51,612 bases of DNA, taken from positions 1 through 51,612 of IMG/VR virus record IMGVR_UViG_3300047320_000164, one strand, 5' to 3'. The stretch is from a virus. Positions within the stretch are counted from its first letter, which is position 1; every line of letters begins with the position of its first letter. The notes beneath the pieces were generated by a model. It saw only the letters and a list, made by a program, of their open reading frames with translations. It did not search any database and had not been told where the DNA came from. The position numbers and the translations under genes are program-made. Below are positions 1,257 to 51,612 of the stretch, one piece after another.

Positions 1257-2366
1257 TCAGAACAGGCGGCCAACGGCTTTTGCGAACTCATATGGATCCT
1301 TTGCGCTTTTCTTCAGATTGCACTTGGGGCAGGCAATCACCAAGTTGGCGACGACATGCTTCCCGCCCTTTGAAAGCGGCTCGTAATGGTCGATGTGGTA
1401 TTTCTTGGGGCATTTGACGCTACACCAGTGACAGACCTTAGGCGCCGTCATTTCCCATGCGTGGATCGCAGCGGTTGAATCCCCGCCCTCTTCCTGTGCG
1501 CGGCGCCTGGCCTTGTAGGACATCTTGATTGCTCGAACCTTGGATCGGTTAGCTGCGGCCCATCGCTTCGCTTGCTCCTGCCGTCGTACTCGATTTGTTG
1601 CGTTGTAGGCGCGCGTACGGCGCAGGATGTGATCGATATTCTTGGCGTAGTAGCCAAGGTCGTAAGACTTTTTCGCGTCGGAAGCCGCTGCTTCGTTAGC
1701 GCATTGAACGCATGCCCCGCTCGTGTAGCGCAGCCCGGAGTGACCGGAGCTGCAAGGGCGTCCGACATAGGTCTTGTCACCGCGCACCAAGGCCAATTGC
1801 CTTGCCTGATGAGCTTCTCGCCACGGCCTTGTTACTTCCGCATAGTCTGCGGCGCGGCGTTTCGCAGCCTCTGCGCGCTCCACCTTACTTCTGCGAAACT
1901 CAAGGAGTGATGGTCGGGTCTGAGCTCGCGCCTCGTTTCGCGCCGCGCATGAAAGGCGATTGCACTCTACGCACTTCCCGTCGGTGACGTAGCGCGGGCC
2001 GAGATGCCCATGACAACAAGGAGTGCCGGTACTATATTGCGACAAGCCAGCGGCTTTCGCGGCCTTCCTGGCGCCCTTAGAATTGCGCCACGCATCCGAA
2101 CGAAGTGCGTAGCTAGGGTCGTTAGCAACGCGCCGCGCGAGCTTCTTTTCTGCCAGAAGCGGGTCACTATCACGCCGAACCTTTTGCCGTCGGCGACTCT
2201 CATCTAAGTCGGCGTGATACGCTTTTTTCTGCCTGATATTAAAGCACTCCAAGCAAGTGCCGTTAGAAACTAGACGCTCAGCGTAGTGCCCCTGCTTGCA
2301 GGGCTTGCCAGTGAAATAGCGCTTTAAGGCGAATGCCTTCGCTTGCGCGCGGAGGATGATTTCCAT
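1257..2366 (-). CDS. HNH endonuclease with three cysteine-rich repeats
   Basis: 369 residues. The C-terminal 60 residues form a zinc HNH nuclease: CHWC, YHIDHYEPLSKGGKH, then NLVIACPKCNLKK, giving the HxDH-N-CxxC arrangement. The N-terminal two thirds contain three repeats with the pattern G(K/T/R)PC-x2-GH-x3-RY-x2-G-x-C-x2-C (GKPCKQGH, GTPCCHGH, GRPCSSGH), probably zinc-binding DNA-recognition units. Start at 2366 is chosen because AAGGA lies four bases upstream; a longer frame to a TTG at 2456 has no such site. The gene sits between lysis-linked genes like a free-standing mobile nuclease. Target unknown. Confidence 0.85.
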   Translation of the reverse strand: MEIILRAQAKAFALKRYFTGKPCKQGHYAERLVSNGTCLECFNIRQKKAYHADLDESRRRQKVRRDSDPLLAEKKLARRVANDPSYALRSDAWRNSKGARKAAKAAGLSQYSTGTPCCHGHLGPRYVTDGKCVECNRLSCAARNEARAQTRPSLLEFRRSKVERAEAAKRRAADYAEVTRPWREAHQARQLALVRGDKTYVGRPCSSGHSGLRYTSGACVQCANEAAASDAKKSYDLGYYAKNIDHILRRTRAYNATNRVRRQEQAKRWAAANRSKVRAIKMSYKARRRAQEEGGDSTAAIHAWEMTAPKVCHWCSVKCPKKYHIDHYEPLSKGGKHVVANLVIACPKCNLKKSAKDPYEFAKAVGRLF

Positions 2367-2458
2367 ATGTTCCTTGACTAGAGGATGACCTTTGGGTGCT
2401 TGGAAGCTGGCGGTCAAACCAGCTTGTCGGGTGGCCACCCTATCCAAGCCCTTCAATT

Positions 2459-4113: not shown

Positions 4114-4505
4114 CGCACGGCCTCCCATAGCCTGTTCACGGCCGGCATAGCTTCGTCGCAGCTCGTCGCGTGTGCGCCGATTATCTGCTGCAGCGCGCCA
4201 TCAAACCGCCTACCCTGCTCCGCCGCCTTGAGTCGGGCCGCGGCGCCGCGGGTCTCGGCGGCGGTTTTGGCTGCTCTCATAGCATCTACCGCCCGGTTCT
4301 GTTCGCGGATGGCGACGGTCAGATCGGCGCTCCTACCCTGCTCCGCTACCAGATCAACCCGGGCGGCATCGCGGTCGCGAGCCGCCAACCACCAGCCGAA
4401 GCCGGCCGCGCCGCCCACTAATGGCAGGGCGACGAGCAGCCCGAGAGCCGCGACCTTCCATAGGCCACCGGTTAGCGCGCCGCCGGCCGTGGATAGGATG
4501 CTCAT
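4110..4505 (-). CDS. Rz: Rz-like inner-membrane spanin
   Basis: 131 residues. One N-terminal membrane anchor (about residues 15-42, Gly/Ala/Leu-rich) is followed by a charged helical periplasmic domain with coiled-coil character, the usual i-spanin layout. Its ATG overlaps the stop of the DUF6527 gene (TAATG) and its stop overlaps the Rz1 start. The longer upstream frame is an artefact. Confidence 0.85.
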   Translation of the reverse strand: MSILSTAGGALTGGLWKVAALGLLVALPLVGGAAGFGWWLAARDRDAARVDLVAEQGRSADLTVAIREQNRAVDAMRAAKTAAETRGAAARLKAAEQGRRFDGALQQIIGAHATSCDEAMPAVNRLWEAVR

Positions 4506-18602: not shown

Positions 18603-18937
18603 TTTTTTTCTGCTTCCTTGCCGTCGAGATCAGAAAGGCGCCATGCGATGTCCCAGAGATTCATAGCCGCCGCGTAGTGCTTGGCGCCGAAAGCCTCCCA
18701 CTCCGCCGACGTGAACAGGGGCTCGTCGTCGGCGTCGAGTACGCTGGCGGAAAGCAACGGCGCCAGGTGTCCGAAGCTTCGAGTAATGCGCCCTGTGGTC
18801 GCCTTAAACTCCTGGCTCAGCGCCATGCGTTCGGCGAGGCCCAAGCCGCGCACCAGAACGTCCCCACCCAACTCAGGCACCGAAACCACCTCTTCCGGTA
18901 ATGTCGGTAACTGCACTTCGGATTTCTTTACTCGCAT
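18578..18937 (-). CDS. tail assembly chaperone (gpG-like)
   Basis: 119 residues, zero-frame product that ends at a TAG about 25 bases after the slippery heptamer. Contains EEVVSVPELGGDVLVRGLGL, LLSASVLDADDEPLFTSAEW, typical of the short tail chaperone. It coats the tape measure before tube polymerisation. Its ATG lies just downstream of the terminator hairpin at 18956-18978. Confidence 0.85.
   Translation of the reverse strand: MRVKKSEVQLPTLPEEVVSVPELGGDVLVRGLGLAERMALSQEFKATTGRITRSFGHLAPLLSASVLDADDEPLFTSAEWEAFGAKHYAAAMNLWDIAWRLSDLDGKEAEKNSKAPASE
18602..18608 (-). promoter_or_regulatory. programmed -1 frameshift site A AAA AAC
   Basis: In the gpG frame the codons read GCA GAA AAA AAC TCG. 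The heptamer A AAA AAC is a canonical X XXY YYZ slippery site in the right phase. A -1 slip continues as AAA AAA CTC GAA AGC directly into the gpT-like frame. Confidence 0.85.
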
Positions 18938-19770
18938 GTCGTCCCCAAAAATGAAGAAGCCACCGAGCTGGTGGCTTCATTTGATGTCCGCACGGGCTTT
19001 CTGCCCACATATCCGACTCGCGCCGCTCGAAGCTTCGCTGCGGCGGACAACTTGGCACGCCATTCATCGGAGAACTTCCGCCCCTTCAGGGCTTCAGACA
19101 TCGTCTTGGAAAACTCCGGTGGACGCTTTTGCCCAGTACGTGCCAGGGATTGTTTTTTCTTGGTTTCGTCAGACACTACCCTACCCTTTGCTATCGCTGA
19201 CAATTTTGCGGAATGCTCAGCGGAGCGCACCTTTCCGGATAAAGATACAGACAGCTTTGCGCGCGTCTCTTTTGAGACTGCGCGCCCCATGCTTGCGGCG
19301 CCAATTTTTGCTTTATGCTCATCCGAAAGGACCTTGCCGGCTAATTTTGCGCGGTGCTCTTCCGAAAGTTTTTTACCCAATTTCGCCGCAGAAATTTTCG
19401 CTTTGGTTTCTTCGCTGTGCCTAATTCCCCTACGATGCACCCCAAGCTTGGCCCTTGATTCTTCCGTATGTTTCCATCCAAGCGCAGAGCCGGCTGTCAT
19501 GAAAATATTAAATTCTGGCTTGAGCGCATCCAGAAAGCGCTGCTCGTAGAAAAGCAAGTTAGATGGCTCGCAGATAATCAGTTTCCTGAATTCAAAAACG
19601 ACTTCGCCATACTTATCCCACGATCTCTGTAATTTAATATTCCTGTGCTTACCGTCGCGTAGCGCTGATCGATGTTTGTGCCATCTCTGCGCAAAATTCA
19701 CCGCAGACCCGATGTATTGTTTGCCGTTTAAAGTGTTGACGATTTCATAGATGCCAGATACCAATTTCAT
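18928..19770 (-). CDS. GIY-YIG homing endonuclease with NUMOD3 repeats
   Basis: 280 residues. The GIY-YIG domain is at the N-terminus: SGIYEIVNTLNGKQYIGS, then RWHKHRSALRDGKHRN and the catalytic Glu in FYEQRFLDAL. From about 105 to 235 there are at least seven NUMOD3-type DNA-binding units with patterns like HSEETKAKIS, LSEEHRAKLA, LSDEHKAKIG, VSKETRAKLS. Start at 19770 has GGGGAATCCA upstream. It separates the tail tube gene from the chaperones, so it is probably a mobile free-standing insertion. The neighbouring tail tube gene is intact. Confidence 0.9.
   Translation of the reverse strand: MKLVSGIYEIVNTLNGKQYIGSAVNFAQRWHKHRSALRDGKHRNIKLQRSWDKYGEVVFEFRKLIICEPSNLLFYEQRFLDALKPEFNIFMTAGSALGWKHTEESRAKLGVHRRGIRHSEETKAKISAAKLGKKLSEEHRAKLAGKVLSDEHKAKIGAASMGRAVSKETRAKLSVSLSGKVRSAEHSAKLSAIAKGRVVSDETKKKQSLARTGQKRPPEFSKTMSEALKGRKFSDEWRAKLSAAAKLRAARVGYVGRKPVRTSNEATSSVASSFLGTTCE
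18950..18978 (-). terminator. rho-independent terminator (leftward) after the tail tube
   Basis: GAAGCCACC, five-base loop, GGTGGCTTC, then TTCATTTTT on the minus strand. In other phages a terminator follows the major tail gene. Here it lies inside the last codons of the GIY-YIG gene, which reads through it. Confidence 0.75.
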
Positions 19771-19965
19771 TGGATTCCCCTCCCAATAGCCTTCCCATAA
19801 AGGGGCGAACACCAGGCCGTGGGATGCGGCTTTTCGGGAGCTAACCTAGGTGCTCGCTAACCATCGGGCAATCCAATGGCTTCGTGCTTCGTCGGTCAAT
19901 TTTTCGGTGCTTTCGCCGCCACCATCAATTGAACAAAAAACTAAATTATTGAGTCACCACCAATT

Positions 19966-40721: not shown

Positions 40722-41215
40722 GCTGCGGCCCACGCTTTCTGCTGCGCCTTGTGGGCCTTCAGCGCCGCCTTGTAGCTGGCCCTGGCTTCCTTCTTTGTTG
40801 GTTTCCACTCGCCCTGGATGTGCTCCGTGTAGTCGTAGTCGACTCGCTTGAAGCGCTCGTACTTGTACAGGTCTTGGCGGCATTCCTTCTCGCGATTCCA
40901 GTAACTCTCGTGGCGGACGCACGGCAACTCAATTCCAAGCCATTCGGCGAAGGACTCGCAGCATTCCGAGTGCAGGTAGTCTCGATAGGCGCCCTGAGCA
41001 CGGTTCGGCTGACGGACCTTGCCCATTTCGCCGTACACAACCTCCCAGGTCGGGTGCGCGTTGAGGATCACACCAGGCTCGTCATGGTCGAAGTTGACGC
41101 CGATGTAGTGCCCACGGTCGGCAGCGATGATGCCGCGCTTTCCGTTGATGGTGACGAGGCGGCCGACCGTGGCTGGCACGCCGTAGTACTCGCGCACATA
41201 TTGGCAGGCAGTCAT
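40718..41215 (-). CDS. early phage protein of unknown function
   Basis: 165 residues. QYVREYYGVPATVGRLVTIN and GKRGIIAADRGHYIGVNFD suggest a small SH3-like barrel, followed by a His/Cys-containing helix region and a Lys/Ala-rich tail (SYKAALKAHKAQQKAWAAA). Conserved in related early regions; no known activity. Confidence 0.6.
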   Translation of the reverse strand: MTACQYVREYYGVPATVGRLVTINGKRGIIAADRGHYIGVNFDHDEPGVILNAHPTWEVVYGEMGKVRQPNRAQGAYRDYLHSECCESFAEWLGIELPCVRHESYWNREKECRQDLYKYERFKRVDYDYTEHIQGEWKPTKKEARASYKAALKAHKAQQKAWAAA

Positions 41216-41862
41216 GGCGACACCCATTGAAATTCGATCACCCAGCACCACGGGTTGGCGTCCCAGCTGCCGGCGCCGTTGATGGATTCCCACAGCGCCG
41301 AGAATGCATCGGAGGCGGGCGCGCCGACCGCTGCGGTGTAGCGCGCATCCGTGCCGTCGATGAAGTGTCCGCCAGCGCGGTCGCGCTTCACGCCTTCAGC
41401 CAACACGTCGACCCCGCTGATCGCCTGCAGCCGCTCCACCCGCACGATGACGACCTCCAGTAGGATGCGGCTGGCCCAGCGCGGCATGTGGATGCTTGGG
41501 CGCCAGGCGCCTCGTTGGCTGTCGTAGAGCTTAATGTACGGGTCAGGCTCACCCGGCGCGACGTGAATCTCGCGCTCGGCATCGTCGGCACGGAAACGCA
41601 GTTCATAGGTGCGGTCGTAGCCCTTGTCGGTACCGAACGCACCGAGCATTTCGATCGACCAAGCCTCACGCACCCACAGGCGGTCGCCCGGCTTGCCGTA
41701 AGGCAGAGGGCGCTGGCTCCACTTGTCATCGAGCAGGCCGCCCAGCAGGTTCTCGATGAACGGCAGGTGCTTAGCCTTCACGACGCGCCGCGTCTGCGTC
41801 TTGCTGCCGTCCAGCAGTGCTCGCACCATGGGCGCCGAAAACAATATCGGATGCTCTTTCAT
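41212..41862 (-). CDS. ASCH-domain-like phage protein
   Basis: 216 residues. MKEHPILFSAPMVRALLDGS, KTQTRRVVK, GDRLWVREAW, HMPRWASRILLEVVIVRVER, ALWESINGAGSWDANPWCWV: the well-known phage morphogenesis-like/ASCH family. ASCH folds bind RNA or modified nucleosides. Exact role not known. Start at 41862 chosen over a longer frame that covers the next gene. Confidence 0.8.
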   Translation of the reverse strand: MKEHPILFSAPMVRALLDGSKTQTRRVVKAKHLPFIENLLGGLLDDKWSQRPLPYGKPGDRLWVREAWSIEMLGAFGTDKGYDRTYELRFRADDAEREIHVAPGEPDPYIKLYDSQRGAWRPSIHMPRWASRILLEVVIVRVERLQAISGVDVLAEGVKRDRAGGHFIDGTDARYTAAVGAPASDAFSALWESINGAGSWDANPWCWVIEFQWVSP

Positions 41863-42092
41863 GACCCATCCTTCGCAATAATGGTGTCGCCGCCAGTGTG
41901 AAAGGCGATGCATTCGATCAGGCGCTTGTAGCCGCTTTCGCCGAGAGGTATAAACCATCCGTCCCGAGAACTCCACGCCATCTGTGCGCGGAGCTCCTTC
42001 AGTACGTAAAGCGGGTCGCGCTCGACATACACTCGCCCGATCGCCATGGCGTGGCCGCCAGATTCTGGATTGATGCGATCTTCCGAGCTCAT
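41859..42092 (-). CDS. small early phage protein
   Basis: 77 residues. VYVERDPLYVLKELRAQMAW then GWFIPLGESGYKRLIECIAF suggest one alpha/beta domain. Overlaps neighbours by 4 bp on both sides. No family recognised. Confidence 0.55.
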   Translation of the reverse strand: MSSEDRINPESGGHAMAIGRVYVERDPLYVLKELRAQMAWSSRDGWFIPLGESGYKRLIECIAFHTGGDTIIAKDGS

Positions 42093-44290: not shown

Positions 44291-44305
44291 CCCTCCTACG
44301 GAGGG
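44291..44305 (-). other. hairpin behind variable-region gene B
   Basis: CCCTCC, loop GTA, GGAGGG on the minus strand, 27 bases after the end of the variable cassette of the 44321-44773 gene. No T-run. Retroelement variable regions of the BPP-1 type also have a hairpin downstream of the variable repeat, so it may be more than a terminator remnant. Confidence 0.45.
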
Positions 44306-44320
44306 AAAAGTACTAAAGGG

Positions 44321-44773
44321 TTAAAGGGGCGATCTGCGAACGGCCCGCGCGCGGTACTGATCCGACTTGAGGTTGCAGTACTGGTCGCCACCGTTGAAGC
44401 CCTGCATCCAAGCGAAGTCAGGGGTGCCCGCGTGCTGCTCGCGGGACCAGTGGTAGCAGGGCTCAAACTCGCTTTTCAGGTTGGCATACAACAAGCTCTG
44501 CTCGCAGCAATCGGGCAAATCGCCGCCCAGCGCCAGCGCCCAGGCCACAGCATCGTCCCAGTTGGATTCGGTCGAGCCGGGCAGAAGCACGACATGGTGG
44601 CTGGGCGTACCGTCAGACTTCAGGACCAGGCCGGCGTAGCGCTCTCCCTCGCGCAGCTCGATCTTCATGGATGGGATTTCAACTACCAGCGCCGCGGCGG
44701 CGAGCGCGTCTACGCGGGCATTGAGCTCAGCGATGCTGGCTTTGATGCTCTTGATTTCGGACAGGTCGGACAT
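44321..44773 (-). CDS. DUF1566/C-type-lectin-like variable protein B
   Basis: 150 residues. N-terminus is a coiled coil (LSEIKSIKASIAELNARVDA), followed by a domain with GERYAGLVLKSDGTPSHHVV, NWDDAVAWALALGGDLP and a lectin-fold-like end HWSREQHAGTPDFAWMQGF, QYRARAVRR. The last 40 residues are nearly identical in DNA to those of the plus-strand gene 48486-49118, while the rest differs. This is the pattern of a target protein of a diversity-generating retroelement. Where the protein acts is unknown; no signal peptide. Confidence 0.7.
   Translation of the reverse strand: MSDLSEIKSIKASIAELNARVDALAAAALVVEIPSMKIELREGERYAGLVLKSDGTPSHHVVLLPGSTESNWDDAVAWALALGGDLPDCCEQSLLYANLKSEFEPCYHWSREQHAGTPDFAWMQGFNGGDQYCNLKSDQYRARAVRRSPL
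44332..44449 (-). repeat. 118-bp variable-region-like cassette, copy B
   Basis: Aligns without gaps to 48987-49104. 39 codons plus one base: 26 codons identical at all three bases, 13 different with nearly all differences in positions 1 and 2. Ends with an identical 14-nt G/C-only run (44341-44354) and a shared TTCGCAGAT. Confidence 0.85.
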
Positions 44774-44827
44774 GTTCTCTCCAGTATTTTTTATAGGTGG
44801 CGGCCGAAGCCGCCGTTGTCGAATCCG

Positions 44828-45019
44828 TCAGAGCTTGTCGATGGCTTCACGCAGAGCCTGGCGGGCGCGGTATTCCTTGATGCTGTCCGTCGAACTCTTT
44901 GTTGCGGCGTGAGACTTGTCCGCCTCACGCCACTTCTTAGCCAATGCGATCACTCTGTCTTCGGGAGAGGCCCCCAAGGGGTCTAAGGGCTGGCTCCCGT
45001 TGCCTCGCGATTGGTGCAT
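44828..45019 (-). CDS. small early phage protein
   Basis: 63 residues from an ATG at 45019 with GGGGA six bases upstream; a GTG at 45049 is possible. Helical C-terminal half (EDRVIALAKKWREADKSHAA, YRARQALREAIDKL). No family recognised. Confidence 0.5.
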   Translation of the reverse strand: MHQSRGNGSQPLDPLGASPEDRVIALAKKWREADKSHAATKSSTDSIKEYRARQALREAIDKL

Positions 45020-45118
45020 AGGCATTCCCCAGTTTTCTAAATTGCTCACTATTCAGTGAGCTCGCTTTGCTTCCAGATCAGCCGGCGTTCAACCGACAGC
45101 CCTTCCAGGACAATCGAA

Positions 45119-45388
45119 TCAGGGCCGCAGGCGGGCCGGGGCGCTGCCGTAGTTCACACGACTACCGAAGTTCGGCAAGCTGAAAACTTGGCCCACTTTG
45201 GGACCTTCAACCCTGGCCGGCATTGGCTTACGATGTATTGCAACCCACTGCTTAACCAAGGTCCTCAAGGCGCTGCTATGTTTAAGTCCAACTTCCCGGC
45301 ACACATCACGGAAACTCAAAAACAAGTCCGGATCGAAGTACGCCTTGACCAGGATGTCGCTAACGCTGCTAGTGCTGCTGTTACTCAT
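45119..45388 (-). CDS. small regulator-like protein (RHH-like)
   Basis: 89 residues. VKAYFDPDLFLSFRDVCREV followed by GLKHSSALRTLVKQWVAIHR resembles a ribbon-helix-helix core. GGGAG lies upstream of the ATG. Second gene after Cro in the leftward operon, a place for early regulators. Confidence 0.55.
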   Translation of the reverse strand: MSNSSTSSVSDILVKAYFDPDLFLSFRDVCREVGLKHSSALRTLVKQWVAIHRKPMPARVEGPKVGQVFSLPNFGSRVNYGSAPARLRP

Positions 45389-45454
45389 AAATTTCTCCCG
45401 GTGAATCTGACTTCTGGCTTTCTAGTTGTGGTGCTACTTCTGCTGCAGCAGCCG

Positions 45455-45679
45455 CTAAGCCGCTTTGGTGTTACGAAGGTAGGACCAATCGACCTTGTCG
45501 TTCAACTGCTCGCACCGCACAACGCCGGCGCTGAACTTCTCGATCTCCGGGCACTTCTCCGCAGGCACCGAACCTCGCGTAATCCATTCGTACACTGAAA
45601 CCGCGCTTATGCCGAAGTGCTCGGCGATTTTGCCGGCCCCGCCCGCGTCGTCTATGGCTTGTTTCAGTTCAATGCTCAT
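45455..45679 (-). CDS. Cro-like YdaS/HTH repressor
   Basis: 74 residues. SIELKQAIDDAGGAGKIAEH, FGISAVSVYEWITRGSVPAE is a classic Cro/YdaS HTH, with the recognition helix at about 23-36, and a short tail WSYLRN. First gene of the leftward early operon, divergent from the CI-like gene. With the -10 at 45687-45692 transcription should start almost at the ATG, so the mRNA is probably leaderless; no ribosome-binding site is seen. Confidence 0.85.
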   Translation of the reverse strand: MSIELKQAIDDAGGAGKIAEHFGISAVSVYEWITRGSVPAEKCPEIEKFSAGVVRCEQLNDKVDWSYLRNTKAA

Positions 45680-45686
45680 ACGTTCA

Positions 45687-45715
45687 AGCTTAGGCTATGC
45701 CTAACTTTACGTCAA
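45687..45715 (-). promoter_or_regulatory. leftward early promoter (cro)
   Basis: TTGACG at 45710-45715, 17-bp spacer, TAAGCT at 45687-45692. Operator O1 covers most of the spacer. Start point predicted near 45680. Confidence 0.7.
45690..45704. promoter_or_regulatory. operator O1
   Basis: Perfect palindrome TTAGGC-TAT-GCCTAA. Lies in the spacer and -10 of the leftward promoter. Same motif at 45738 and 47946. Confidence 0.85.
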
Positions 45716-45734
45716 GGCCATGCGCAAGTATTTT
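45706..45734 (+). promoter_or_regulatory. promoter of the CI-like gene
   Basis: TTTACG at 45706-45711, 17-bp spacer, TATTTT at 45729-45734. Start near 45741, inside operator O2, leaving about 11 bases before the ATG. Overlaps the leftward promoter. Confidence 0.5.
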
Positions 45735-45737
45735 TTG

Positions 45738-45752
45738 TTAGGCTATACCTTA
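45738..45752. promoter_or_regulatory. operator O2
   Basis: TTAGGC-TAT-ACCTTA, a degenerate copy of O1 centred 48 bp away, ending at the first base of the CI-like start codon. A weaker site there would give autorepression. Confidence 0.7.
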
Positions 45753-46204
45753 TGAAATTTCCTGAAATCGTCCGCCGTGCGCGAAAAAAGAAGGGCTGGA
45801 GCCAGAGTGAGCTTGGCAAAGCATTGGGTATGGCAGATACAAACATCTCTGCATATGAGAACGGCAAGGGGATGCCTAGCCTGGAAAATGCGAGGGAGAT
45901 GGCGCAGATTTTCAGAATGACCACGTCCCAGCTTCTTGGGGAAACGCCCGTACCAACGCATCTTGTATTTATGTCGAAGGGCGAGTGCGAAGCTGCCGGC
46001 TACAGCTGGGAAGACCCCATACCTTGCGAGCCGCAGAAGCCTGTTGAGGTCAGGGGCTTGGAGCCTGGGCGCTTCATGATGCTTGTGAATCTAGAGGGGT
46101 GCGAGTTGCTGTCCGTACTTCACCAACTGGATAGCCGAGATCGACGCACCCTACTCGGGCTTGCTGACGAACTCCTTCGCGGAAGCGATGGCGCTGGAAA
46201 ATAA
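45752..46204 (+). CDS. CI-like HTH_3 repressor without peptidase domain
   Basis: 150 residues. HTH: MKFPEIVRRARKKKGWSQSE, LGKALGMADTNISAYENGKG, MPSLENAREMAQIFRMTTSQ. The C-terminal part (FMMLVNLEGCELLSVLHQLD, RTLLGLADELLRG) has no S24 Ser-Lys dyad and no Ala-Gly cleavage site, so RecA-stimulated self-cleavage like lambda CI is not expected. Divergent from cro with shared operators. It should maintain lysogeny by binding O1-O3. Confidence 0.85.
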   Translation: MKFPEIVRRARKKKGWSQSELGKALGMADTNISAYENGKGMPSLENAREMAQIFRMTTSQLLGETPVPTHLVFMSKGECEAAGYSWEDPIPCEPQKPVEVRGLEPGRFMMLVNLEGCELLSVLHQLDSRDRRTLLGLADELLRGSDGAGK

Positions 46205-46326
46205 GTTGGCGGCAAGTTGCGGACGGGATAATCTTTCGCCAGCCGCTCAAGAATGCGCAATGCGTCCTTTCGAGCCCGCTGATCCATTAGTTTGTATGCC
46301 GCAACAACTCGGGTTAGCTTCTTCAT
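46120..46326 (-). CDS. possible small gene convergent to the repressor
   Basis: 68 residues. The first 40 (MKKLTRVVAAYKLMDQRARK, DALRILERLAKDYPVRNLP) look like a real helical protein and cover the stretch behind the repressor gene; the rest overlaps the repressor C-terminus in antisense and is low complexity. No good ribosome site. Kept with low confidence because similar short proteins occur beside phage repressors. Confidence 0.4.
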   Translation of the reverse strand: MKKLTRVVAAYKLMDQRARKDALRILERLAKDYPVRNLPPTYFPAPSLPRRSSSASPSRVRRSRLSSW

Positions 46327-46468
46327 TGTCGTCAGTCAAATTGTTTGGGGTGCGAACAACTTTAATTTAACTATGAAAAGTTCATAACGCGAAAAAAGAG
46401 CGCCTTTTACCCTTCAGTTTGCGTCCCAAAACTCAATAATTCTCACCTTTCATAAGTGGAGTCACCCC

Positions 46469-47080
46469 ATGATGCCTTTGAAATGGGTCATCTCGAGTTC
46501 TGTTCTGGCGGCGCTGATTTGGGGAGCGCTGGGAGAGGGGCGTCATAGGGGAGTTGGTAGCGAACCAAACGTTTCGACAAGTGAGGATGTGGCGATTAGC
46601 CAGATCACGGATGCAATGGAGGCTCAGCTCCAAAAAGGGGAGCCCATCCAGGCGCCACGCATCGAGGTGCCGCATCTCTGGAATTACGAGTCGCGCGTGG
46701 ACCCGATGACTGGTAAAACGGTACGGCTCGCAACCATCGGGGCCAATAACGAGCCTCGATTTCCAGGCAGATACACCCCAACACTCACTATCCGACTGAA
46801 TCCCGACCTTAGCACTGACATTATGCTGCAGGTCAAACAAGGGCATTTCGTCTGCGGCGTCCACGGCTGCGCGATAGCAGTGCGATTTGATGATGGAGAG
46901 ATAATCACGCTCAGAGCTGAGCCGCCCTCGGACCACGCCACGGATGCGTTAATCCTGGTCCCAGGATCGAAGGTTTCCGTAAAATTAAGGGCCGCGAAAG
47001 TGATGCGCGTGGAAGCGACCCTCTTTCAACAGGGCAATCACATCATGACCTTCGACGTTGGTGGCCTTGAAATGAGATAG
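46469..47080 (+). CDS. exported phage/prophage protein of unknown function
   Basis: 203 residues. Hydrophobic N-terminus PLKWVISSSVLAALIWGAL acts as signal peptide or anchor. The folded part has WNYESRVDPMTGKTVRLATI, RYTPTLTIRLN, HFVCGVHGCAIAVRFDDGEI, with two cysteines placed for a disulfide. I know this pattern from many prophages as a conserved hypothetical. GGAG seven bases before the ATG. A lysogenic exclusion or envelope role is possible. Confidence 0.7.
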   Translation: MMPLKWVISSSVLAALIWGALGEGRHRGVGSEPNVSTSEDVAISQITDAMEAQLQKGEPIQAPRIEVPHLWNYESRVDPMTGKTVRLATIGANNEPRFPGRYTPTLTIRLNPDLSTDIMLQVKQGHFVCGVHGCAIAVRFDDGEIITLRAEPPSDHATDALILVPGSKVSVKLRAAKVMRVEATLFQQGNHIMTFDVGGLEMR

Positions 47081-47110
47081 GCCAATAGCCGCGCCGGCGA
47101 GCGCCACCTA

Positions 47111-47353
47111 GTGCGCGATCTGCCAGACCGGGTAATCCAGCCTGTTCCCTTGGCAACTTGTGAAAAGCTAGTTGAATGGATGAAACAATTGAATAGATTT
47201 CAGGTTGTTGAATTGGCTAAGATTAGTAGGCGAAACCGGCACGCTCTTGCCGACATGGGGAAACCATGGAACTGCTATTTTCTTGGCTCGGCCTTGCCGT
47301 ACTCACCGCCGTTGTCTCCACCGGCCGATCACGGCCAGGGAACGGCTGGATGA
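47111..47353 (+). CDS. doubtful small gene
   Basis: 80 residues from a GTG. The first 50 (QPVPLATCEKLVEWMKQLNR, VVELAKISRRNRHALADMGK) look protein-like; the remainder overlaps the membrane protein at 47266 in another frame. No clear ribosome site. Could be the decayed start of a gene. Confidence 0.3.
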   Translation: MRDLPDRVIQPVPLATCEKLVEWMKQLNRFQVVELAKISRRNRHALADMGKPWNCYFLGSALPYSPPLSPPADHGQGTAG

Positions 47354-47442
47354 TTGCCGGTGGCTACATTGCACTACTGATTCTTGCGGCGTGGGCACTG
47401 ATCCCGATTATGCGCAGCGCTCGAACGATAATTCCCTGGTGA
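47266..47442 (+). CDS. 58-residue membrane protein
   Basis: MELLFSWLGLAVLTAVVS then GWMIAGGYIALLILAAWALI and a short basic tail. Two membrane helices. GGGGA is five bases before the ATG. Located in the lysogeny region, so a superinfection-exclusion type role is possible but unproven. Confidence 0.65.
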   Translation: MELLFSWLGLAVLTAVVSTGRSRPGNGWMIAGGYIALLILAAWALIPIMRSARTIIPW

Positions 47443-47516
47443 TCTTGATTGCTGGCGCGCCACACCACAAGCGGCGCAATGGACTTGCCTCGCTCGGGCA
47501 AATCTATCATCCGCAC

Positions 47517-47741
47517 CTAGCCTGCCGCATCTAGTAATTTCCGCAGCATCCCCTTCATTTCGCGCAACTCGCGCTCCACAGCCTCCAGCCGCTCGTCGGT
47601 CGGCGATGCATCCAGCCTGGCCCGGATCTCGTCTGACCTGGTTCGGCCATGGTGGTCTGCGGCCGCATCCAGACGTTCCATCACATCCTTCGGAAGACGT
47701 AGCGTCATTGCCGAGTAGTCGCTTTTCTTAATTTTCGTCAT
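47517..47741 (-). CDS. Arc-like ribbon-helix-helix regulator
   Basis: 74 residues. SAMTLRLPKDVMERLDAAAD, HHGRTRSDEIRARLDAS is the Arc-family RHH, followed by a coiled-coil tail (LEAVERELREMKGMLRKLL). ATG at 47741 preferred over a TTG at 47756. Minus strand, divergent from the rightward early operon; may repress one of the early promoters. Confidence 0.75.
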   Translation of the reverse strand: MTKIKKSDYSAMTLRLPKDVMERLDAAADHHGRTRSDEIRARLDASPTDERLEAVERELREMKGMLRKLLDAAG

Positions 47742-47900
47742 CCGGCAATTGTGCAAGCCGCCACTTCGACGTTGCTGAATTTGGTATCAACTAGGTATCA
47801 ATGTCGGGCATACTTGTGAGCCACAGCGCCGCTTTCACTTTGCAAGTAAGTTGCACTACCCTCAAACCCACACCTCCACATCGATCAATTTTTCGCAACT

Positions 47901-47942
47901 AAGGCACTACTTGAAAATATATTCAGGCAGTGCCTTGTTTTT
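47901..47942 (+). terminator. rightward terminator before the second early promoter
   Basis: AAGGCACT and AGTGCCTT form an 8-bp stem around a 20-base loop with a small inner TGAA/TTCA pairing, followed by GTTTTTT. It insulates the rightward early operon from lysogenic transcription upstream. Confidence 0.7.
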
Positions 47943-47963
47943 AACCTAGGCTTAGCCTAATAT
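47935..47963 (+). promoter_or_regulatory. rightward early promoter with operator O3
   Basis: -35 TTGTTT at 47935-47940, 17-bp spacer, -10 TAATAT at 47958-47963. Operator O3 (CTAGGC-TTA-GCCTAA, 47946-47960) fills the spacer and enters the -10. It differs from O1 at one arm base and at the centre. It should be switched off by the CI-like repressor together with the leftward promoter. Confidence 0.75.
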
Positions 47964-47997
47964 TCAATCAAGGCAACGGCTAAGTAGGGAAACAGCC

Positions 47998-48345
47998 ATG
48001 AACTCCGCAAAACGCAACATCGAAATTCCAAAGCGCCCTACACCGGTAGCACTGCCTCTTCGGCTCGGCTTCTCCGATGGTAGTAATGCGCACATCGTCA
48101 CCGACGCAAATGGTGAGGCGATTGGATCCACCTTCGCGATCGTGCCGAATATGACGGTGGAGGACGTAAGGAAATTTGAGCCGACAGCACGGCGTGTGCG
48201 CGAGATTGAGTACATGCTGAATGCGATCAACGCATACGAGGCCCTGGTTGGCGCGTTGCTGGCCATTTACCTGTCGCCACCAAACAAGCGGATTGCCGAG
48301 ATTGTCAAGACCGGTTTGCTCGCCGCCGGTGAAATCAAGGAGTAG
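47998..48345 (+). CDS. first gene of the rightward early operon, unknown
   Basis: 115 residues. Basic start (MNSAKRNIEIPKRPTPVALP), then GSTFAIVPNMTVEDVRKFEP and helices to the end. No family recognised. Starts about 28 bases after the predicted start point of transcription. Confidence 0.6.
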   Translation: MNSAKRNIEIPKRPTPVALPLRLGFSDGSNAHIVTDANGEAIGSTFAIVPNMTVEDVRKFEPTARRVREIEYMLNAINAYEALVGALLAIYLSPPNKRIAEIVKTGLLAAGEIKE

Positions 48346-48349
48346 CACC

Positions 48350-48469
48350 ATGAACCGTAGCCGCATTTTCGTCGTAGTCGTGCTTGCCTTGGTGGCCTAC
48401 ACCGCCTGGACCATGCAGGAGGTCGTTACTGGCCCACTGCGCAGCGTGATTACGCAACTCACCTTATAA
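48350..48469 (+). CDS. 39-residue membrane protein
   Basis: MNRSRIFVVVVLALVAYTAW then a short periplasmic end. Single membrane helix. AAGGAG seven bases upstream of the ATG. Four bases after the previous gene. Unknown. Confidence 0.65.
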   Translation: MNRSRIFVVVVLALVAYTAWTMQEVVTGPLRSVITQLTL

Positions 48470-48485
48470 CGAATTGGAGAACACA

Positions 48486-49118
48486 ATGAACGCCCTAGCA
48501 CCAGCCGAAGTCGTCAACGCTGAAGTCAAACTGCTCCAACCAGGCGCGCCCTTTGCAGGCGGCTTCTTTGTCGGCATCATGAATGTCAACGGCCAGCTCT
48601 GCGCGCTGATCGCCAGCCCCAAAGCCGGTGGCGAACTGCGTGGTGCATGGAATGCCTCCGCGAAATCCGTGGCCGGCGCACTGAGCTACTGCGACGGCCG
48701 CACCAATACTGCCGCAATGGCCGAAGCAGGCTCCAACTTGGCCAAGCAAATCCTGGCGCTCGAGATCGGCGGCTTCGCGGACTGGTATCTGCCAGCACAG
48801 GACGAGCTCGAAATGCTGTATCGCCACTTCAAGCCGACAGCCGAGCAGAACTACCTCTATGCCCGCAGCGGCGTGAACGCCAGCGCGTCGCCTGCCACGC
48901 ATGCATACACCGCCGACTCGCCGGCGCAGACCTGCGTCGAGTCCTTCAAGGACGGAGAGGCCAATGCCTTCGACGCAGCCTGGTATTGGTCCTCTACGCA
49001 GCACGCGGGCGACCCTGACTGCGCTTGGTTGCAGTTCTTCGGCGATGGCGGCCAGTTCTGCGACCACAAGTCGAATCAGTACCGCGCGCGGGCCGTTCGC
49101 AGATTGGTTATTCAGTAA
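48486..49118 (+). CDS. DUF1566/C-type-lectin-like variable protein A
   Basis: 210 residues. PFAGGFFVGIMNVNGQLCAL, ASAKSVAGALSYCDGRTNTA, GGFADWYLPAQDELEMLYRH, AAWYWSSTQHAG and the end QYRARAVRR are typical of DUF1566-type lectin-fold domains (the WYLP-x2-DEL motif is diagnostic). The last 40 residues equal the cassette of protein B apart from scattered residues. ATG at 48486 behind GGAG. No export signal. A ligand-binding protein whose binding face is diversified is the working idea. Confidence 0.8.
   Translation: MNALAPAEVVNAEVKLLQPGAPFAGGFFVGIMNVNGQLCALIASPKAGGELRGAWNASAKSVAGALSYCDGRTNTAAMAEAGSNLAKQILALEIGGFADWYLPAQDELEMLYRHFKPTAEQNYLYARSGVNASASPATHAYTADSPAQTCVESFKDGEANAFDAAWYWSSTQHAGDPDCAWLQFFGDGGQFCDHKSNQYRARAVRRLVIQ
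48987..49104 (+). repeat. 118-bp variable-region-like cassette, copy A
   Basis: Partner of 44332-44449. Variable codons A/B: TCT/CGC, ACG/GAG, GAC/ACC, TGC/TTC, TTG/ATG, TTC/GGC, GGC/AAC, GAT/GGT, GGC/GAC, TTC/TAC, GAC/AAC, CAC/CTC, AAT/GAT. G/C-only 14-nt run at 49082-49095. Beyond the cassette both copies carry TTTAGTACTT shortly after the stop. Confidence 0.85.
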
Positions 49119-49154: not shown

Positions 49155-49562
49155 ATGGATATCAGCGAATCCCGCTTCATCGAAACGACTTCGTCGGACG
49201 CTACTGCAGCCGGCGGCGCCGACAAGAAGCTTCGCGAAGCGGCCCTCAAGAAGTTCCGGCTGCAACGGCTGTCCATTGCGGCTGGCGATGGGAAGGCCGC
49301 CGCCAAAGTTGCCGAAAGCCTGCGCGCTCTTTTCGCTGACACGGGAGTGTTGGAAGACCTGGTGCGAACCGCATTCACGGTCAACTACGAGGGCACCGGC
49401 CGCGCGCTGTTTAGCGTAGTCCAGGAAGTGATGCTCACAGACGCCGATATCGACGCCGCCCGCGAGCTGGGCATGCTGGCCACGGCACCCGCATCGCTGG
49501 AAGCGCGGCGCACTGCTGCTCTTGAGGCCGTGGGCGATGCGATCGAGCAGTTGGGGATGTGA
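49155..49562 (+). CDS. helical phage protein of unknown function
   Basis: 135 residues, nearly all helix, acidic (KKLREAALKKFRLQRLSIAA, DLVRTAFTVNYEGTGRALFS, SLEARRTAALEAVGDAIEQL). It follows variable protein A, but its acidic character does not fit the basic Avd accessory protein of retroelements. No family recognised. Confidence 0.6.
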   Translation: MDISESRFIETTSSDATAAGGADKKLREAALKKFRLQRLSIAAGDGKAAAKVAESLRALFADTGVLEDLVRTAFTVNYEGTGRALFSVVQEVMLTDADIDAARELGMLATAPASLEARRTAALEAVGDAIEQLGM

Positions 49563-49840: not shown

Positions 49841-49928
49841 CCACACAGCGGCCATAGCTCAGATGGTAGAGCCCTGTCCTTCCAAGTCGGGTGTGTCGCG
49901 AGTTCGATTCTCGCTGGCCGCTGTGTGG
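49841..49928 (+). repeat. 14-bp inverted repeat enclosing the tRNA
   Basis: CCACACAGCGGCCA at 49841-49854 and its exact complement at 49915-49928. The inner seven pairs are the tRNA acceptor stem; the outer seven (CCACACA/TGTGTGG) extend it and leave no encoded CCA. Confidence 0.85.
49848..49922 (+). tRNA. tRNA-Gly (anticodon TCC)
   Basis: Acceptor GCGGCCA/TGGCCGC, TA, D arm GCTC-AGATGGTA-GAGC, anticodon loop CTTCCAA, T arm GCGAG-TTCGATT-CTCGC. The anticodon stem CTGTC/GTCGG has one T-T mismatch and one wobble, and the variable loop is seven bases. CCA is not encoded. Phage-borne tRNA genes may compensate codon usage or replace a cleaved host tRNA. Confidence 0.8.
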
Positions 49929-51108: not shown

Positions 51109-51612
51109 ATGTTTTTCAAGAATGCACAAATTTACCGGCTGCCGACCAAATGGGAGTATGCCGTTGAGCAGTTGAGCGCTGCGCTGGCGCCGCACGTGTT
51201 CACGCCAGCCGGCAGCAACGAGCTGATGCGTCAGGGCTGGATCGCGCCGCGCGGCAACGGCGTGCCGCTGGTGCATGCTGTGCATGGCCAGTGGCTGCTG
51301 CGGCTGCAGACCGAGAAGAAGCTACTTCCCGCCGCGGTCATTAACCAGGCAGCGAAGGCGCGCGCCGCTGAAATGGAAGAAGCGCAAGGTTTCGCCCCCG
51401 GCAAGAAAGCCATGAAGGAACTGAAAGAGCGCATCGCTGACGAATTGCTGCCCCGCTCGCATCCTCTTCTCAGCTTCACGCACGTCTGGATCGACCCGGT
51501 CAACGGCTGGCTGGTGGTCGATGCCGCCAGCCCGGCCAAGGCCGACGAAGTGATCAAGCTGCTGCTGAAAGCGGTGGACCGCATGCCGCTGGAAAGCCTG
51601 CGCGTGCAGCGT
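51109..51612 (+). CDS. rdgC: RdgC recombination-associated protein (cut by window end)
   Basis: 168 codons present, no stop before the edge. MFFKNAQIYRLPTKWEYAVE, RQGWIAPRGNGVPLVHAVHG, RLQTEKKLLPAAVINQAAKA, FAPGKKAMKELKERIADELL are classic RdgC. RdgC is a ring-shaped DNA-binding protein that limits RecA access to DNA. Full length is about 300 residues, so roughly 55 percent is seen. GAGGAG five bases before the ATG. It is linked to the small phage genes, so it is likely phage-borne. Confidence 0.95.
   Translation, partial: MFFKNAQIYRLPTKWEYAVEQLSAALAPHVFTPAGSNELMRQGWIAPRGNGVPLVHAVHGQWLLRLQTEKKLLPAAVINQAAKARAAEMEEAQGFAPGKKAMKELKERIADELLPRSHPLLSFTHVWIDPVNGWLVVDAASPAKADEVIKLLLKAVDRMPLESLRVQR

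Follow-up and report, generated by a model that had tools for sequence, protein, structure and literature searches.

The window analyzed here is the whole 51,612-bp stretch of DNA, a linear virus record. Phage genes for terminase, portal, major head, tape-measure, tail, and endolysin proteins lie on the minus strand. A cro-like gene (position 45455) and a cI-like gene (45752) mark an immunity region that is flanked by the two genes considered below, i.e., gene A running leftward and gene B running rightward (Table 1). The window is a temperate phage. No integrase was found in the 51,612-bp record, which stops at base 51612, where 504 bp of rdgC are present. A DNA search of the right half of the window against phages returned only a short match, to the ASCH-domain gene of Klebsiella phages. 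This sole match to known phage DNA overlaps a gene at 41212-41976 (-), relatives of which occur in 45 of the loci examined below, often near a diversity-generating retroelement (DGR).

Table 1. Features of the two target genes and of the right end of the window (VR, variable region; TR, template; RT, reverse transcriptase)
Feature	Position	Strand	Description
Target gene A	44321..44773	-	150 aa; Lcl_C/DUF1566 type with N-terminal helix; cro-side (leftward) operon; SD GGAG before ATG
VR-A	44332..44438	-	107 bp, GCAG...CGCAGAT; edges from VR/TR alignments of relatives
Pre-VR 11 bp in gene A	44439..44449	-	Not template-derived; TR homology of relatives starts at GCAG
Possible hairpin (weak)	44291..44305	-	CCCTCC-GTA-GGAGGG; ~26 nt past the end of VR-A; no counterpart at gene B
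Target gene B	48486..49118	+	210 aa; Lcl_C/DUF1566 (C-type-lectin-fold); rightward operon behind cI; SD GGAG before ATG at 48486
Pre-VR 11 bp in gene B	48987..48997	+	Not template-derived; TR homology of relatives starts at GCAG
VR-B	48998..49104	+	107 bp; edges from VR/TR alignments of relatives
Conserved gene behind gene B	49155..49562	+	Same order in contig L050
rdgC, cut by contig end	51109..51612	+	Pfam RdgC, E=4.5e-57; profile positions 1-167 of 298

A repeat search returned, as the longest inverted pair in the window, a cassette with one copy in each gene. Recomputation reproduced the description in an earlier note on this DNA: an ungapped alignment of the cassette at 44332-44449 (minus) with that at 48987-49104 (plus) spans 118 bp, 26 of the 39 codons are identical and 13 differ, and 18 of the 19 mismatches are at codon position 1 or 2. 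The genes also differ upstream, as the note had said, with only 32% identity (ungapped) over the 300 bp before the cassettes, i.e., they are unrelated there at the DNA level. No third copy of the cassette was found in the window, the best match elsewhere being 61/118.

The same note had treated all 118 bp as the variable region. The pair is real, but the true VR is shorter (107 bp): alignment with TR-bearing relatives places its 5' edge at GCAG, 11 bp inside the cassette, and leaves the first 11 bp outside template homology. These 11 bp hold five of the 19 mismatches (CGCGA/TCTAC), including the only one at a third codon position, and represent gene-specific sequence ahead of the VR; the corresponding codons of relatives are GAG-CAG in gene-A-type genes and ACG-CAG in gene-B-type genes. 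One of the note's examples of adenine mutagenesis (ACG/GAG from AAG) falls in this segment and has to be dropped, as no template adenine corresponds to it. Within the 107-bp VR pair, all 14 mismatches are at codon positions 1 and 2 and none is at a third position (chance under random placement, 0.002). The other 93 bases are identical, third positions included, between flanks that are unrelated.

Both VRs carry an identical, adenine-poor 3' anchor, CGCGCGCGGGCCGTTCGCAGAT (IMH-like), and a homologous anchor with the same end point is present in the VRs and TRs of relatives. Identity between the two window copies stops at CGCAGAT, where the repeats of Burkholderia phage Magia also end. The exact 25-bp 3' end of the VR had no match among the viral contigs. 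In BPP-1, a hairpin or cruciform lies just downstream of the VR. In the window, a downstream hairpin considered as IMH evidence is not shared by the two targets: it is weak at gene A (DNA fold z=-1.6) and absent at gene B (z=+0.6).

The protein encoded by gene B contains an Lcl_C (DUF1566) domain above the Pfam cut-off (E=5e-14), and that of gene A matches the same domain under the cut-off (E=3e-4). AlphaFold models of the two proteins were of middling confidence (mean pLDDT, 69 and 75) and low in the VR; the gene A model has a helix at residues 4 to 26 and a low-confidence VR part. The best Foldseek match of gene B was the C-terminal domain of Legionella Lcl (probability, 0.99; E=5.7e-3). Its further matches were weak and many of them were C-type lectins, as were nearly all of the weak matches of gene A. 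In sequence searches of the PDB, the gene A family matched only Lcl (HbP1, 8q4e; E=9e-4) and the gene B family matched nothing; PADLOC gave no match for the target proteins. Neither protein begins with a strongly hydrophobic segment (hydropathy over 19 residues peaks at 1.3 to 1.4), which argues against export of both without excluding it. Judging by gene position, the targets are unlikely to serve in the tail; they may act inside the cell or in the envelope.

Single-sequence queries with genes A and B yielded only 0 to 2 relatives from viruses and, in addition, one genome contig of no relevance. An alignment query against viral contigs yielded 238 relatives, of which 80 loci were examined; homologues of gene A were present at 97 loci. 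Genomes carrying these genes do hold the template and RT that the earlier note had proposed to search for: an RT of one family is encoded at 68 of the 80 loci, and 6 more loci end within 1.5 kb. Two targets followed by Avd, TR, and RT make up the usual arrangement, and homologous genes in ~70 phage contigs adjoin Avd, TR, and a DGR RT. One template usually serves two to three targets, some of them remote. Thirteen VRs in the family lie >3 kb from the RT, and all of the distant targets seen are on the same contig as their RT. Opposite-strand targets occur in at least two phages, as in L141, where one target on the opposite strand lies ~6.4 kb before the RT. Repressors, integrases, DNA methyltransferases, and ParB-like, primase/helicase, and RecE-like genes recur as neighbors of the DGR, and these genes constitute the early/lysogeny region. 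The earlier note had located the two targets correctly (i.e., in early operons rather than among tail genes), but the placement that it called unusual is the rule in the family and no oddity of the window phage.

At 6 of the 80 loci, no recognizable RT was present in the examined flank, which extended >1.5 kb downstream. These loci (L025, L028, L037, L054, L081, and L088), which have target genes without an RT in the flank, are candidates for orphaned variable regions; L054 retains a partial Avd.

The earlier note also argued that every mismatch between the two cassettes fits an adenine in a common template. From two copies alone this fit is uninformative, because any two differing bases fit an A-to-N origin. 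The templates of relatives supply the test, and the argument holds for 13 or 14 of the 14 variable positions. The L058 TR (35 A in 107) has an adenine at every one of them (p=2e-8), the L050 TR (30 A in 107) at 13 (p=8e-8), and the TR nearest by identity, that of L059, also at 13 (p=1.4e-6; codon positions 1 and 2 only, p=6e-5); these p-values assume independent positions and serve for orientation only. The two VRs of L050 differ from their own TR at 18 and 10 positions, and all 28 differences are at A. Over 114 VR/TR pairs of relatives, 1,275 of 1,284 mismatches (99.3%) are at template adenines. The changes at template adenines comprise 673 A>G, 409 A>T, and 193 A>C. The Avd, TR, and RT of the relatives, together with the match to template adenines, strongly support the note's DGR interpretation, i.e., adenine-directed mutagenic retrohoming.

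These data bear on whether a retroelement is needed at all. Positive selection on ordinary paralogues, or gene conversion from one to the other, would account for some C-terminal similarity, which is expected given the Lcl_C/DUF1566 domain common to both proteins. The invariant bases are identical down to the third positions between unrelated flanks, however, and 13 or 14 of the 14 differences coincide with template adenines of relatives; moreover, gene conversion would homogenize the variable codons, not scramble them. We regard an origin of this kind as scarcely credible.

As a separate observation, the TR-like copies beside the RT in L072 (position 5560) and L076 (5808) read YSGPQYT instead of adenine-rich codons and resemble the local VRs, as if the template had been partly overwritten by a VR.

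As the earlier note had stated, the window contains no RT, and there was no RVT_1 match. The only match of the family-built RT and Avd models in the window was the VR of gene A itself. Neither an Avd (model from the Magia Avd) nor a TR was found in the window. The missing RT is most likely a contig-end effect, because the contig ends inside rdgC, just before the place that the DGR occupies in relatives. The closest syntenic contig, L050 (IMGVR_UViG_3300025233_000011), has the order gene B, homologues of the genes at 49155, 50382, and 50881, rdgC, a gene-A-type target, Avd, TR (4269-4375), and RT. An RT is present at 16 of the 17 loci where rdgC and a target gene occur together, mostly 1 to 3 kb behind rdgC on the same strand; as some of these loci are one virus seen twice, the count for distinct contigs is about 10 of 11. 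The one locus without it, L003, is on a contig that breaks off within the homologue of gene B. On the L050 map, the TR of the window phage would lie ~1.3 kb past the contig end and ~8.6 kb from VR-A.

A complete tRNA-Gly (TCC) gene is located in the early region of the window at 49847-49923 (+), and L050 has conserved DNA at the corresponding position, past its 49155 homologue and before rdgC. In L089 and L090, the two closest relatives for rdgC (78% identity), a more distant RT gene immediately precedes rdgC, and this RT-rdgC pair occurs there without recognized target genes.

We consider it very likely that VR-A and VR-B belong to one phage-borne DGR, the core of which lies just past the right contig end, behind rdgC. 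This core probably comprises a third target gene, Avd, TR, and RT. If instead an ancestral DGR wrote both VRs and its RT and TR have since been lost, the targets would be orphaned and the VRs static. The absence of RT, Avd, and TR from the whole 51.6-kb record agrees with such a loss, which may occur in the family given that, of the 74 relatives whose contigs continue far enough downstream, 6 show no RT in the examined flank. The record ends inside rdgC without an integrase, however, and L050 has its DGR directly behind that gene. In addition, the 107-bp VR pair is free of synonymous or third-position decay, which suggests recent homing. Loss of the element is accordingly improbable. An RT acting from the host chromosome or from a co-resident prophage, on a phage without a core of its own, is considerably less probable still: targets several kilobases from the RT do occur in the family, and remote targets are known (PMC7517822), but every distant target that we saw shares a contig with its RT, and synteny predicts a core within the phage.

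Sequence comparison establishes the VR pair, its boundaries, the adenine correspondence with the templates of relatives, and the synteny. From these we infer that the phage would carry its own RT and TR, that the element would be active, and that the targets would be binding proteins made early or in lysogeny, not tail parts. As is established for DGRs, reverse transcription that is error-prone at template adenines would be coupled to replacement of the VR by cDNA. A template RNA would be reverse transcribed with errors at its adenines, and the cDNA would replace the 3' end of each target between the GC-rich 3' anchor CAGTACCGCGCGCGGGCCGTTCGCAGAT and the 5' GCAG. Such replacement would keep the invariant codons of two otherwise unrelated genes identical and would randomize about a dozen codons of a putative C-type-lectin-type (Lcl_C/DUF1566) binding surface. 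One of the targets would be served across ~8.6 kb and in the opposite orientation.

Among isolated phages, Burkholderia phage Magia (gp46) and Shewanella phage vB_Sb_QDWS have homologues of gene A. Both carry a TR and an RT, and an Avd is also annotated in Magia. Magia (MT701587) was published as having a potential DGR with genes 47 and 57 as targets (PMC7883833). We found gene 46 to be a third target beyond these two, so that the Magia element consists of three targets, Avd, TR, and RT; its mismatches inside the repeat are at template adenines, and its repeats end in CGCAGAT. Like the window phage, Magia is temperate and has small lectin-fold targets outside the tail region with the same VR end, and its gene A homologue is located beside Avd. 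One Magia target, on the same strand as the RT, lies ~7 kb away from it, whereas one window target is on the opposite strand, and the RT and TR are present in Magia and would lie outside the record in the window phage. L050 shares with the window the order gene B, 49155 homologue, and rdgC, the DNA being ~73% identical in the first 1.4 kb, and its TR matches 84 of the 93 invariant VR bases; it differs in that a target, Avd, TR, and RT follow directly behind rdgC, where the window stops.

Stenotrophomonas sp. SKA14 likewise has one DGR locus with several DUF1566 targets, according to the accessible part of its description (PMC6642488), which concerns a bacterial record and, in that part, mentions neither a phage context nor linkage to rdgC. 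Earlier work has covered targets of the DUF1566 type, DGRs with multiple targets, and remote targets alike (PMC6642488; PMC7517822). The window system, whose targets are remote and outside the tail genes, falls into this already known class, of which Magia provides a published example from a phage.

BPP-1 (Mtd) resembles the window in adenine mutagenesis from a TR to a 3'-terminal C-type-lectin VR, and it has Avd and an RT. The BPP-1 target is a tail protein that serves host tropism, whereas the window targets lie in the immunity/early region. Phage DGRs are mostly understood as tail-fiber tropism switches. The window phage and some 70 related contigs place DGR targets in the immunity/early region, near rdgC, recE-type genes, and a repressor. 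In these widespread temperate phages, with target genes beside the immunity switch and recombination genes, a DGR might diversify small binding proteins that lack a detectable secretion signal, with the variable surface acting inside the cell. We offer this reading tentatively and think it rather unlikely; the partner would be, e.g., a host defense, a competing phage, or another intracellular partner, and, again doubtfully, binding to a host receptor would not be involved. Binding partners of the diversified non-tail proteins are testable in the isolated phage Magia.

Contig ends can hide a DGR core and leave variable regions that appear orphaned. A 2021 survey stated that its own method would miss remote targets owing to fragmented assemblies (PMC8144416).

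Other mobile or defense-type genes lie outside the two target operons of the window. A GIY-YIG-type homing endonuclease gene is located amid the tail genes at 18928-19856 (-), and an int-alpA RNA match (RF02996, 42 bits) covers 19790-19856 on its 5' side. At the left end, an HNH nuclease gene (1257-2456, minus strand) shows weak matches to PtuB-like and other candidate defense proteins.
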